The notes under the pieces are model-generated. The model did not search any database, was not told the origin of the DNA, and saw nothing but the letters and a program-made list of their open reading frames with translations. A stretch of 15,642 nt of DNA from Alphaproteobacteria bacterium (GTDB taxonomy: Bacteria; Pseudomonadota; Alphaproteobacteria; Sphingomonadales; Emcibacteraceae), in contig JAADGA010000051.1 in the NCBI GenBank assembly GCA_013152615.1, positions 1-15,642 on the forward strand, written 5' to 3'. Position 1 is the stretch's first letter. Every line of letters begins with the position of its first letter. The translations under genes were made by a program, and so were the position numbers. Shown in pieces: positions 1 through 14,229 of the stretch.

Positions 1-2435
1 AGACTCTGGTCTCAACGCTTGCCGGTTACCTCAATGCCCTGCCCGGCAAGGGGGTTCATATCGTCACCGTTAATGACTATCTGGCCCATCGTGATTCACA
101 GTGGATGGGACAGGTGTTTAATTTTCTCGGCCTCACCACCGGATGTATTGTCCCCAATATGGAGGAGGAAGACCGGAAAACGGCCTATGCCGCCGATGTT
201 ACCTATGCAACCAATAATGAGCTCGGCTTTGATTACCTGCGTGACAATATGAAATTCCACCCGGATGCCATGGTCCAGCGGCCCCCTTTCTTTGCCATCA
301 TCGATGAAGTCGACAGTATTCTCATTGATGAGGCCCGGACCCCGCTGGTTATTTCCGGCCCAACCGAAGATAAATCTGATCTTTATGTCTCCATTAATAA
401 AATTATCCCCGAACTGGGCCCGAAGGATTACGAAGTCGATGAAAAGGCACGATCTGTCACCCTGACCGAAGTCGGTATGGAAAATCTGGAACAGATTCTG
501 ATAAAACACGACCTTATTAAAGGGGAAAACATGTATGACTTCGGTAATGTGACCGTAGTCCATCATGTTAATCAGGCCCTGCGCGCCCATACCCTGTTCA
601 CCCGGGAAAAAGACTATATTGTCAAAGACAACGAAGTCATTATCGTTGATGAATTTACCGGACGGATGATGGATGGCCGTCGCTATTCCGATGGGTTGCA
701 TCAGGCGCTGGAAGCCAAGGAAAATGTCGAAATCCAGACAGAAAATCAAACTCTGGCTTCGGTTACATTCCAGAATTATTTCAGACTTTACCCTAAACTT
801 TCCGGCATGACCGGCACCGCCGTCACCGAAGCCGCTGAATTTGAGGAAATTTATGGTCTGGGGGTTGTCGAAATTCCAACCAACCTTCCGGTGTGCCGAA
901 TTGATGACGATGATGAAATCTATCGTACCGCACAGGAAAAATATGGTGCAATCGCTGAACAGATCGTGGCCTGTCAGCAAGCCGGGCAACCAATACTGGT
1001 TGGTACCGTCAGCATCGAACGATCAGAATATCTGTCTGATATGCTTAAATCCCGCAAGATTATCCATAATATACTGAATGCCAAATTCCATGAGCAGGAG
1101 GCCTATATCATCGGTCAGGCCGGCCGCCTTGGCACTGTCACCATTGCCACCAACATGGCCGGACGCGGCACGGATATTCAGCTTGGCGGTAATCTGGACA
1201 TGCGCATTGAATCTGAAGTAGATGACGTTGATGAAGCATCCCGACAGCAGTGTATCGACAAGATTACCGCAGAAGTCGCCGCAGAAAAGCAGCAGGTTCT
1301 CGAGGCGGGCGGGCTTTTCGTTCTGGGGACGGAACGCCATGAAAGCCGCCGGATTGATAATCAGCTCAGAGGCCGGTCCGGACGTCAGGGCGATCCTGGC
1401 CATTCAAAATTCTTTCTCAGCATGGAAGATGACCTGATGCGGATATTCGGCGGCGAACGGATGGATAGCATGATGCAGAAATTCGGCTTTGAAGAGGGAG
1501 AATCCCTGGTTCACCCATGGCTTAACCGGGCGGTGGAAAAATCCCAGGAAAAGGTTGAGTTCCGCAATTATGAAATCCGGAAAAACCTGCTGAAATTTGA
1601 TAATGTTATGAATGACCAGCGCAAGGTTATTTATGACCAGCGCCGGGAGGTCATGGTCAGTGATGATCTGACAGAGACGCTGGCCGATATGCGTGCCCAG
1701 GTGATTGAAGATATGATCAAGACTCATATTCCCCCGCGAGCCTATCCGCAGGATTGGAATGTTACCGGTATGAGCATCGAAACCGAACGTGTTTTTGGTC
1801 AGGATTTCGGTCTGAAAGAATGGATAAAAGAAGAAGGTATTGATGCCGACGGTTTTGAAGACCGCCTGCTGGATCAAACCGATCGTTTCATGGCAAAACG
1901 TGCCGCCGATATTGGCCCGGATATCATGCGCCAGGTGGAACGTAGTCTGTTACTTCAGGCCATCGATCGTTACTGGAAAGATCATCTGGCACAACTGGAT
2001 CATTTGCGTCAGGTGATTCAACTGCGGGCTTATGGCCAGCTTGACCCGCTTAACGAATATAAGACCGAAGCCTTTTCCATGTTTGAAACCATGATGGAAG
2101 AAACCCGCGATAATGTGGTAATGCTGTTATCCCATATCGAGATACAGGCGGAAGAGCAGATCCCGGATCTGGAAGAGCCTGATCTTGCTGCCTTTGATAT
2201 AAGCCATATTGATGCCACGACCGGGGAGAATGACGCCTTGATCGAGTTTGATTCCAATGACCCGGAATCATGGAAGACTCTATCTCGCAATACTCCCTGC
2301 CCTTGCGGATCAGGCAAAAAATACAAACATTGTCACGGTAAAGTGCAGCCGGTTACCAGTCACAAAACCGGCCGCAACGAGCCCTGCCCCTGTGGCTCCG
2401 GCAAAAAATACAAGCATTGCCACGGCGCGTTGTAG
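1..2435 (+). CDS. secA: Preprotein translocase ATPase SecA (5'-truncated by window edge)
   Basis: SecA is the cytosolic/peripheral ATPase that drives unfolded preproteins through the SecYEG channel. The reading frame is open from base 3, so about 810 residues are visible and the start, with the Walker A GEGKT segment, lies outside the window. Visible marks in order: VNDYLAHRD just after the missing Walker A region; [14 protein letters not shown] (Walker B); the preprotein-crosslinking domain; GMTGTA; then nucleotide-binding domain 2 with [14 protein letters not shown] and [13 protein letters not shown]. The helical scaffold/wing domain follows. The C-terminus carries two zinc-binding SEC-C motifs (CxCx8CH) where SecA normally has one; see the separate entry. 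No frame breaks are seen. It ends just before a block of structured repeats that probably forms its 3' UTR. Confidence 0.98.
2295..2426 (+). repeat. Duplicated SEC-C zinc-binding motif at the SecA C-terminus
   Basis: Two copies of the 15-residue segment [15 protein letters not shown] occupy 2295-2339 and 2382-2426, joined by a 14-residue linker. Each has the CxCx8CH pattern that binds Zn2+ and, in known SecA, contacts SecB or ribosomes/phospholipid. The two copies are identical in protein but differ at seven codon third positions, all synonymous. This is therefore an old in-frame duplication kept under protein-level selection rather than a recent slippage event. Confidence 0.93.
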
Positions 2436-2467
2436 GGATGGTTTTTTGTTTTAAGAAGTGGTGGTGT

Positions 2468-2495
2468 CCCCCGCACTCTTTTTTTAAGAGGTGGG
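2468..2495 (+). terminator. Possible terminator/hairpin at the end of the secA transcript
   Basis: CCCCC and CTCTT at 2468-2480 can pair with AAGAG and GGGGG at 2486-2495 around a run of five T, about 35 bp after the secA stop codon. It forms the leading edge of the first repeat unit. It has no classic T-tract after the stem, so intrinsic termination here is only a possibility. Confidence 0.35.
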
Positions 2496-3360
2496 GGTTC
2501 CCCCCGCTCGTCGCCTCGCTCCCCCGCCTACGCTAAAGCTCCGGGCGCGCGGTCGCGCTTGCCTCAGGCCTTCGGCCCTCGGAGTCTGAGTCTATCCGGA
2601 GAGGATTTTGGAGTGGCCTTTCTTTTTTTTAAGAGATGGGGGATACTCCCCCGCTCGTCGCCTCGCTCCCCCGCCTACGCTAAAGCTCCGGGCGCGCGGT
2701 CGCGCTTGCCTCAGGCCTTTTAGGCCCTCGGAGTCTGAGTATAAGCGGAAAGGATTTTGGAGTGGCCTTTCTTTTTTTAAGAGATGGGGGATACTCCCCC
2801 GCTCGTCGCCTCGCTCCCCCTCCTACGCTAAAGCTCCGGGCGCGCAGTCGCGCTTGCCTCAGGCCTCTGGCCCTCGGAGTCTGAGTGTAGGTGGAGAGGG
2901 TTTTTGGGCGGCCGGTCGCGCTTGCCTCACCCAAAAAAGGTTCGGTTACTGAGCTGTATTTAGGTAAGGTGGGAGAACATATCCATCCCCTGTCCGGTTA
3001 CACACTCTGTCTCCGAAGGCCGGGGGAAACCCTCAATCAGAAGCGAGAAGTCGGAAAAGAACAGCGTCCTTTCCGGACAGGCTGAGACTCCGAAGACCAT
3101 AATGGTCTGAGGCAAGGCCGACCGGCCGCCGCGCATAATTGCGCGAGGGGGAGCGAGGCGACGAGCGGGGGAGTATCCCCCATCTCTTAAAAAGAGAAAG
3201 GCAACCCCCAAACCCCATCCGGTTATACTCAGCCTCCGAAGCCCGCAGGGCTGAGGCAAGGGCGACCGCCCGCCCGGAGCTTTAGCGCAGGAGGGGGAGC
3301 GAGGCGACGAGCGGGGGAGTATCCCCCATCTCTTAAAAAGAAAAAAACACCCCCAAGACC
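2476..3360. repeat. Array of ~147-bp structured intergenic repeat units (3 direct, 2 inverted, 2 degenerate)
   Basis: The gap between secA and the GNAT gene (2436-3369) holds no credible gene and is filled with one repeat family. Plus-strand units lie at about 2476-2621, 2622-2769 and 2771-2905, with a degenerate piece at about 2905-2954. Minus-strand units lie at about 3218-3360 and 3071-3217, with a degenerate piece at about 2989-3030. Read in unit orientation each contains: a T-run then AAGAG; a GGGGGATACTCCCCC hairpin (a GGGGG/CCCCC variant in the first unit); the fixed block GCTCGTCGCCTCGCTCCCCC; a short variable segment; a stem-loop with GGTC (or AGTC) loop; TTGCCTCA; a second variable stem-loop; then TCGGAG/TTCGGAG and CTGAG. 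The stems change by paired substitutions between units (see findings). Read-through frames in the units are a by-product. Confidence 0.9.
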
Positions 3361-3369
3361 CTGTCCGGT

Positions 3370-3837
3370 TCACTTCTTTTCGTGACCATCATTGCCGCTC
3401 ATTTTATGGTCATAGGTGACCCAGCTGGTTTTATGGGCAAACTGATCATAAAATTTATGTGCGCCGCGGTTATCTTCCGCCGTAATCCATCTGATCACCG
3501 TGCAGCCCTGAGCCTTCGCAACATTTTCAAGGCGGTCGAGCAGCGCCTTGCCCACCCCTTTGCGCCGGGCAGAGGGACAGACAAAAATATCATCCAGAAA
3601 GATGCCAACCTCCCCCGCCATTGGCCGCAGGAAGCGCCGATAATGAATGATGCCCTGAGGCTCGCCGTCAACCAGTGCGGCCAGCCCGCGCAGCTCAGTC
3701 TCATGACCATCAAGCCAGCCCCACGCGGTTTGCAGCTGTTGCTGTGTCATCGACACCTTGTAAAATCCGGCATAAGCTTTATACAGCTCGGCCCATTTGG
3801 CAAAACCTATCTGCCGAACCTCAACAATCTCAATCAT
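3370..3837 (-). CDS. GNAT-family N-acetyltransferase
   Basis: A 155-residue protein of the GCN5-related acetyltransferase fold, which moves an acetyl group from acetyl-CoA to an amine; the substrate cannot be told from sequence. The acetyl-CoA pyrophosphate-binding motif A is clear: strand IFLDDIFVCPSARR, then RKGVGK (residues 92-97, matching R/Q-x-x-G-x-G/A), then helix ALLDRLENVAK. The C-terminal segment with NRGAHKFYDQF matches the usual motif B helix. Length is typical for a single-domain GNAT. The ATG at 3835-3837 has a weak AGGG site upstream. It is convergent with secA, and its stop codon directly abuts the inverted repeat units. The rpsU terminator upstream separates it from rpsU, although both are on the minus strand. 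Confidence 0.9.
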   Translation of the reverse strand: MIEIVEVRQIGFAKWAELYKAYAGFYKVSMTQQQLQTAWGWLDGHETELRGLAALVDGEPQGIIHYRRFLRPMAGEVGIFLDDIFVCPSARRKGVGKALLDRLENVAKAQGCTVIRWITAEDNRGAHKFYDQFAHKTSWVTYDHKMSGNDGHEKK

Positions 3838-5552: not shown

Positions 5553-5625
5553 TACTCTATTCCCGTTATTGTTGATATAGCTTGAAATCCCCAACCTGCT
5601 CCTTTAACATGGATCAATCATGTGG

Positions 5626-5677
5626 GTCAAAGGCCCGGCATGCCGGTCAAAGGCCCGACACGCAGATCAAAGGAAAG
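5626..5677. repeat. Three GTCAAAGG-type repeats at exact 20-bp spacing
   Basis: GTCAAAGGCCCG begins at 5626 and again at 5646, and ATCAAAGGAAAG begins at 5666, so the period is exactly 20 bp (about two helical turns). They lie in the 230-bp divergent gap between purE (-) and the diguanylate cyclase (+), where promoters and operators for both are expected. They could be operator sites on one DNA face; no known regulator motif was recognised. Confidence 0.5.
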
Positions 5678-7795: not shown

Positions 7796-7839
7796 TACCG
7801 GTTAACCACGATTCTTCTACCGGTTAACTATGATTCTTC
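7796..7839. repeat. 22-bp tandem duplication at the 3' end of the ribbon-helix-helix gene
   Basis: Two adjacent 22-bp copies begin TACCGGTTAAC and end GATTCTTC, differing at two positions in between. The copy at 7818-7839 contains the last codons and stop of the minus-strand ribbon-helix-helix gene, so the other copy is a duplicate of a gene end. Each contains the palindromes ACCGGT and GTTAAC. It fills the short gap between convergent genes, and no other terminator is evident there. Confidence 0.7.
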
Positions 7840-13886: not shown

Positions 13887-13958
13887 TTTTTCCGACAGCG
13901 AAATGAAAGTGGAGGGCTTCTGTTGCTAGGTGCCCTCCGGACCCCGCGTAACAAGCTG

Positions 13959-13997
13959 TTAGGCTGCTACAGCAAATGCTTCATTGTTATCGTTTGC
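13959..13997 (-). other. tmRNA tag reading frame
   Basis: Twelve codons beginning GCA AAC GAT encode ANDNNEAFAVAA, then TAA. With the alanine carried by the tmRNA the added tag would be A-ANDNNEAFAVAA. The AND start and AVAA end fit alphaproteobacterial tags and the ClpX (C-terminal AA) and SspB recognition ends. Confidence 0.95.
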
Positions 13998-14082
13998 ATT
14001 TACAAATTTTGACCCGTCACAGCGGTATCATGCTGAGCAAAAGCTATATCTTTATTACGTACGTCGATCCTGTTTCGCCCCC

Positions 14083-14089
14083 ATAAAAA
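14083..14089 (-). other. Internal spacer removed between tmRNA acceptor and coding pieces
   Basis: Seven nucleotides (TTTTTAT on the minus strand) lie between the encoded CCA of the acceptor piece and the first G of the coding piece. Processing here creates the two-piece molecule. Confidence 0.8.
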
Positions 14090-14156
14090 TGGTGGAGGCG
14101 CCGGGTACCGCCCCCGGGTCCGCTCCGTCTATTCCATATATCCATTTATTGCCGTA

Positions 14157-14205
14157 GTCGGTTGCCCGACATCTTGTATATAATGCAAAAACATTAAAAA
14201 TTGAA
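14157..14205 (-). promoter_or_regulatory. Candidate ssrA promoter and 5' hairpin
   Basis: TATACA on the minus strand (14180-14175) is a likely -10; only a weak -35 (TCAATT/TTCAAT around 14199-14205) is seen. Just downstream, GTCGG-GCAA-CCGAC (14170-14157) forms a 5-bp stem with a GNRA tetraloop at the expected 5' end of the precursor. Confidence 0.45.
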
Positions 14206-14229
14206 TAGCTGAGGTAAAATATTTATAAG
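14201..14229 (+). promoter_or_regulatory. Candidate promoter of thyA-folA
   Basis: TTGAAT at 14201-14206, a 17-bp spacer, and TATAAG at 14224-14229, a good sigma70-type match. The start would lie about 26 nt before the thyA ATG. The region partly overlaps the likely -35 zone of the divergent ssrA promoter. Confidence 0.5.

Follow-up and report, generated by a model that had tools for sequence, protein, structure and literature searches.

The REP, BIME and REPIN sequences of E. coli and Pseudomonas are dispersed, intergenic, imperfect palindromes that occur in clusters of both orientations and as inverted close pairs. The RIME elements of rhizobia are mosaic intergenic palindromes, and the attC sites of integrons are recognised as a folded single strand with bulged bases. 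REPs with a CGTC tag occur in alphaproteobacteria, including sphingomonads. These are defined (PMC3733652) by a CGTC, TGTC or CCTC tag, the last being an accepted variant, by an 8-9 bp stem that begins with two A-T pairs, and by a CCA tail. RepRanger counts REPs in Erythrobacter cryptus (PMC12306157), and parts of the family described here may already stand in automated REP lists.

The window, defined here as the whole stretch of 15,642 nucleotides that was analysed, corresponds to contig C51 in a draft genome of 2.1 Mb (G000; 83% complete, 272 contigs). It contains five near-complete units of a repeat, three in plus and two in minus orientation, and a degenerate sixth, all between the stops of two genes. 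On present evidence, this is a real modular hairpin repeat of the REP/BIME kind that is spread through its order and has made at least one clean insertion at an operon junction. The family probably consists of small modular mobile DNA hairpin elements of that kind, whose copies exchange modules and whose folded strand is kept.

Array and unit architecture

The gene to the left, secA (3..2435, plus), is truncated by the left edge of the window and has Pfam SecA domains on 105-2435. The gene to the right (3370..3837, minus) is convergent with secA and encodes a GNAT acetyltransferase (Pfam Acetyltransf_1, E 1.8e-17). Unit P1 (2479..2617, plus) begins 43 bases from the secA stop. Its hairpins H1, H3 and H4 are at 2493-2505, 2544-2563 and 2566-2578, and its core (2537-2585) scores 68.9 bits. 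Unit P2 (2620..2766, plus) has H1 at 2638-2652 and a core at 2684-2734 (69.0 bits), and served as the blastn query, to which P1 aligns with E 3.9e-52. Unit P3 (2772..2912, plus; blastn E 1.5e-51) has an AGTC loop in its core (2832-2880, 67.0 bits). The degenerate partial sixth core (2900..2948, plus; 22.6 bits, E 5.8e-4) has H3 arms, GGCC/GCGC, that no longer pair fully. Unit M1 (3067..3193, minus; core 3087-3137, 63.3 bits; blastn E 4.8e-25) has a different palindromic linker, GCGCAATTATGCGC. Unit M2 (3201..3345, minus; core 3233-3281, 70.9 bits; blastn E 8.3e-43) lies 24 bases from the stop of the GNAT gene. Protein coding was rejected because the ORFs across the array are mechanical and the units differ from each other by indels.

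Neither the array nor the other gene is present in the 330 nt 3' of secA in 15 relatives or 3' of the GNAT gene in 10, the distance being less at contig ends. The junction is therefore read as peculiar to G000 or to its draft. The array site (2435-3370) is a synteny break, at a rearrangement point of G000, or else a misjoin of a fragmented draft; none of the relatives inspected has secA next to the GNAT gene. Elsewhere in the window, an alphaproteobacterial tmRNA gene (13908-14209, minus; 246 bits), also matched by the permuted tmRNA model, adjoins a thymidylate synthase gene. Two short tandem repeats, each of two copies, lie at 7796-7839 (22 bp) and 5619-5658 (20 bp).

In plus orientation, the unit is composed of a T-run, H1 (GGGGG/CCCCC), a block ending in a second C-run, a linker, H3, the nearly fixed sequence TTGCCTCA, H4, and CGG. 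The linker, which joins the 5' part to H3, is itself often palindromic. H3 has the form GGC-GNNC-loop-GNNC-TT-GCC, with a two-T bulge. The preliminary description had placed this stem at five positions, and it is found at each: GCGC-GGTC-GCGC at 2547-2558 and 2694-2705 and GCGC-AGTC-GCGC at 2842-2853 on the plus strand, and GGGC-GGTC-GCCC at 3260-3271 and GGCC-GGTC-GGCC at 3116-3127 on the minus strand. The next stem, H4, also varies as it was said to, being GGCC/GGCC, GGCCT/AGGCC, AGCCC/GGGCT or AGACCA/TGGTCT.

Relatives have a further hairpin, H2, with a 5-bp stem between the C-runs; it is no longer evident in the copies of the window. Among 36 matches to a 13-base H2 pattern, one of which (L189) is evidently due to chance, 26 have C-G as the second pair and 9 have T-A; at the third pair, G-C occurs in 26 and A-T in 7. 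Other relatives have a different 5' module (GCCTCAATCGCCGGCG...), and in some the tip of H2 or H3 has a long insert. Units were sorted by 5' module only roughly, 58 of 227 falling into an "other" group. At four loci (L125, L129, L144, and L133), inserts that resemble one another, hairpins around CTTTAGTAAACTAAAG or a relative of it, sit at the tips of different hairpins, like nested small elements.

Distribution, insertion and placement

The preliminary description had named confinement to this locus as an outcome that would count against its reading, and the family does occur elsewhere. The genome has 44 blastn matches to unit P2 at E<=1, fragments included. At E<=1e-3, the core model matches 13 of the 16 genomes of the genus and 37 of the 118 of the order, 27 of these 37 at E 1e-6. 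Blastn with the full unit matches 16 of 99 genomes. A sample of the class gave matches at E 1e-6 in 4 of 289 genomes, namely the own genome and three of other orders; the class sample was scored with 20 candidates per genome and the order survey with 50, and the two are not fully comparable. The family is rare in other orders. A pattern scan identified at least 113 stretches, most of which have titles that point to Sphingomonadales; a few are from Asticcacaulis, one is from Elstera, and some are from MAGs labelled otherwise. Three units are present on a 3.3-kb contig labelled Candidatus Fraserbacteria (L236), possibly a binning error. Inverted close pairs of units also occur (example, L237, Parasphingorhabdus marina, 3663 plus and 3728 minus). 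Carriage as plasmid or phage cargo was rejected, as unit P2 has no blastn match in the plasmid and phage collections.

One insertion could be resolved to the base. A unit in genome G011 is a clean insertion of 103 bp, and in G008 and G013 the 422-bp and 426-bp sequences that flank it abut exactly. At these empty sites, the end of the upstream gene and the start of the downstream gene overlap at ATGA. The insert begins with G-TAA, which provides a new stop for the first gene, and ends with AGGAAAGAAGAAAA, a Shine-Dalgarno-like leader, directly before the ATG. The product of the downstream gene presumably resembles 4-hydroxy-2-oxovalerate aldolase. No target duplication is visible at this site. 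Three units of G012 each have no counterpart at the corresponding position in two or more relatives, and their ends are less exact. Grouping by eye gives at least seven sites that are common to two or more species and have homologous genes on both sides. Since insertions are seen against empty sites and other sites are shared between species, the units both insert and persist.

Only 3 of 118 units lie inside an ORF, as called with our own simple gene caller. The 3' neighbour is antisense, with its stop facing the unit, for 63 of the 89 units with a called 3' gene, and the unit follows the stop of its 5' neighbour in 51 of the 88 with a called 5' gene. Counted per gap, 15 are convergent, 27 tandem, and 9 divergent of 51, so the placement bias is only modest. 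A sense-strand unit is located between the 23S and 5S rRNA genes in G010 (L156, 2554-2604) and G011 (L132, 2503-2554), and some copies are therefore almost certainly transcribed. The G010 unit of L156 is carried by L158 and L159 too. Another unit of G011 (L364) lies antisense, just upstream of 16S.

The avoidance of genes, the facing stops, the sites occupied in more than one species, and the units between rRNA genes are all consistent with a cis-acting RNA element. Its hairpins, in mRNA ends or pre-rRNA, would protect the RNA, serve processing, or tune operon expression. Against this, harmless insertion would leave a like placement, the per-gap bias is weak, and units occur in either orientation. 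The pairing evidence given below further lowers the standing of this explanation, which is possible but doubtful.

Paired changes in the stems

Paired changes exceed shuffled controls on most measures, the controls being of a kind that ignores the relatedness of rows. Alignment A1 comprises 29 units, made up of 23 of the 25 own-genome units of at least 95 nt and 6 of 27 relatives; it omits two own units with loop inserts, 6 of the 31 own hits (those under 95 nt), and hits below 50 bits. In A1, 98.8% of cells pair against 87.7% in shuffles, and double-changed cells number 43 against 15.5, which bears out the claim of the preliminary description that pairing is kept beyond chance as the stems vary. 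Slid controls drop to 75% or less. Further pair types in A1 number 8 and show no excess over shuffles (8.3). Alignment A2 (26 of 28 distinct cores) has a covariation score of 0.303 against 0.082. Its further pair types (8 against 7.4) were reached by 244 of 500 shuffles and are thus not in excess.

Two larger sets were aligned to the model and so lean towards its structure. A3, mostly from the genus of the window, contains 118 matches (112 distinct rows, 75 sources) from a search that omitted loci L175-L180. A4, mostly from contigs titled Sphingomonadaceae or its genera, contains 115 matches (105 distinct rows) from 59 of the at least 113 pattern stretches, the other 54 being left out. The pattern used to fetch A4 required an NGTC loop in H3 and held the outer bases of that stem constant, and left the two variable pairs free. 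In each set, 97.8% of cells are paired and 8 of 12 pairs have double changes. Further pair types lie above those of shuffles in both, at 22 against 18.3 in A3 and 20 against 13.3 in A4. H1 hardly varies and gives little covariation information. Predicted folding is often no better than that of shuffles, with z values of -1.50 and -0.04 for two whole units and of -0.65 to -2.21 for six cores or strands.

The H3 arms fall into few types. Among 196 cores with perfect arms, 104 are GGCC, 62 GCGC, and 23 GGGC, and the remaining 7 are rare versions. Rare stem versions (GGAC/GTCC, GACC/GGTC, and GCGT/ACGC) are likewise paired. GCCC/GGGC is absent from these 196 cores, against about 35 expected if the two variable positions were independent. 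Each of the three main types is present in both A3 and A4. Among the 31 own-genome cores, 7 of the 9 combinations of common H3 and H4 versions are present.

The preliminary description had left RNA and cruciform DNA as alternatives, and the nature of the mismatches bears on the choice. Selection on RNA of the plus strand would favour G·T departures, and on RNA of the minus strand A·C. Signal recognition particle (SRP) RNA of the same order was used as a yardstick (best 30 of 97 matching genomes among 99; 27 distinct rows). In the repeat (212 distinct cores, at pairs with at least two common Watson-Crick types), wobble accounts for 6 of 727 standard pairs, with 25 mismatches in addition. In SRP RNA it accounts for 62 of 326, with 52 mismatches; the rows of this test are related to each other, and the Fisher value overstates certainty. 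All departures in the 212 cores are 20 G·T, 20 A·C, and 29 others. Departures from pairing are thus rarer overall in the repeat than in SRP RNA and are not tilted to wobble, so there is no sign of RNA-level pairing on either strand. In H2, A·C or C·A occurs six times (one in L189) and G·T not at all, a hint towards minus-strand RNA that is too few in number to weigh. Since neither strand has a wobble preference, the data favour the DNA side of the earlier alternative.

Paired change with a G-U preference on the transcribed strand, as expected of a structured RNA, was not found. At gathering thresholds, Rfam 15 has no match in the array, and only the tmRNA models match, elsewhere in the window. 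Seven permissive matches in the array are to implausible families (E 2.2-7.1) and were rejected as assignments. The wider view of a structured, non-coding-looking, genome-wide family with no named match stands, as the covariation is real and Rfam gives no match at those thresholds.

The source of the paired changes was sought at sites shared by three close genomes, G008, G011, and G014. Flanks at shared sites are 91-99% identical in 20 of 24 comparisons and 70-90% in 4. In pairwise comparisons at six shared sites, 113 of 132 stem pairs are unchanged, 14 have double changes, and 5 have single changes; the counts are non-independent, coming from 12 pairs, 6 sites, and 3 genomes, and the stem table was typed by hand, with S12 of G014 read by eye. 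H3 of site S2 has a long loop insert and arms that are unpaired as parsed, and was absent from this first count. A recount with H3 of S2 and H4 of S9 added gives 124 unchanged, 14 double, and 9 single. At S2, H2 of G011 is of another type, as is the linker of S9, and these two were excluded from both counts. Joint arm changes are observed at some sites: 10 of the 14 are at S10, where the flanks are also most diverged, and 2 each are at S11 and S2. At S10, G011 has GCACC/GGTGC as H2 and GGCC as H3, and G014 has GTGCC/GGCAC and GCGC, respectively.

The preliminary description implied a model in which selection on pairing acts through ordinary, stepwise compensatory mutation. Covariation beyond shuffles and the pairing of the rare stem versions fit this model. 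Double changes nevertheless outnumber single ones at the shared sites, and half-changed forms are rare. By our own arithmetic for 132 pairs, a divergence of 5% would give about 13 single changes and 0.3 double, and one of 15% about 3 double. Stepwise covariation was rejected as the only mechanism for this excess, and the model as a whole is improbable. The covariation claimed earlier is real, but the paired changes alone do not demonstrate selection on structure, as joint arm change or exchange would also produce them.

Exchange or copying probably makes many of the paired changes, because both arms mostly change together at one site and the H3 and H4 versions assort among copies. In G008, the units of S10 and S11 are 96% identical and so more alike than either is to its own orthologues (0.85-0.91), as would fit exchange within the genome. 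There is a counter-case: the units at S10 of G011 and S11 of G014 (L379 and L369), from different genomes and sites, are also 96% identical, equal to the best same-genome pair. Mean identity is 0.867 for 31 same-genome pairs, 0.853 for different sites in different genomes, and 0.923 for orthologues. Genome-wide homogenisation therefore appears weak, same-genome identity being hardly above that between different sites of different genomes. A palindrome-correcting template switch is an alternative cause of joint arm change, inseparable from exchange on these data.

A reading of the units as bidirectional intrinsic terminators, suggested by the T-runs at their 5' ends and by the convergent neighbours of 24 units among the 68 for which a gene was called on both sides, was rejected as highly improbable, because in the units inspected the T-run is on the wrong side, ahead of the hairpins on the plus strand, with none after them on the minus strand, and because units are also found inside operons, at the ATGA overlap, and between the 23S and 5S genes.

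In the preferred explanation, that of mobile DNA hairpin elements, the units would enter intergenic sites, leave the neighbouring genes intact, and from then on be passed down at that position. Copies would exchange modules, and both arms of a hairpin would thereby change together. The property kept would be the ability of one DNA strand to fold, and that folded strand would probably be what is recognised by a putative protein acting in trans to copy, move, or bind the element. A more specific version is tentative and rather unlikely. It holds that the element is a mobile cassette for whose recognition the folded strand's shape, not its sequence, matters, moved by a non-RAYT enzyme, preadapted to operon junctions, and with interchangeable H3 types shared between families of the order. 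In this version, an insertion that splits the ATGA overlap while supplying an in-frame stop and a Shine-Dalgarno-like leader would let both genes survive. The family is a tractable case of very small elements entering operon junctions without breaking genes, and raises the question of the enzyme that moves them. More generally, covariation in a dispersed repeat seems here to be due to joint arm change at the DNA level and is not by itself proof of a structured RNA. An RNA cause can be told from a DNA cause quite simply by the wobble test, in which G·U is set against A·C and SRP RNA serves as the yardstick.

Comparison with known systems

No named family with this core was found among the open-literature titles listed; a search for three core strings gave two unrelated medical papers. 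The Y1 transposase (PF01797) was not found in the own genome (83% complete) or in four other unit-carrying genomes (G001, G003, G008, and G015). Of 31 genomes, 15 have it, and its presence does not evidently go with the number of units. Of the 29 Y1 places listed, 4 were inspected, and no unit was found around them. A REPIN/RAYT system was thus rejected as a proven mobiliser, there being no Y1 gene in the own genome and none beside the copies checked. A MITE was also rejected, since the sole base-resolved insertion has no target duplication and the ends, by inspection, are not inverted repeats of each other.

The intrastrand triplex motifs of E. coli (BoxC/TM; PMC4666352) resemble H1 and the second C-run, which have the same purine-pyrimidine-pyrimidine order. 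Form-A units (example, 2638-2680 of the window) have a G-run, a C-run, and a second C-run of matched length, five, or mostly six in G026. Judged by sequence, these runs might fold into an intrastrand triplex or into alternative hairpins. With at least 11 nt, the second loop exceeds the 1-6 nt of the triplex finder described in that source, and the likeness extends to one module only.

The CGTC-tagged REPs, as PMC3733652 defines them, resemble the family in that H4 is preceded by CCTC and its first pair is mostly A-T in the lineage of the window. By the same definition, they differ in that the H4 stem is about 5 bp rather than 8-9, the second pair is G-C, and there is no CCA tail, and membership was rejected on these three grounds. 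The most fixed part of the family is also a different one, H3 with TTGCCTCA. The GTAG tag of REPs, as given in that source, was not seen in the family.

The likeness to RIME as mosaic palindromes and to attC as a folded strand with bulges is drawn from descriptions rather than from sequence comparison, and nothing at these loci indicates the integrase or cassette of an attC system. The nearest described kind is REP/BIME. Taken broadly, the family has the features of that kind, with many intergenic palindromic copies, in clusters and in both orientations, and it differs from the REP, BIME and REPIN sequences in its longer unit, its several hairpins, and its exchangeable modules.
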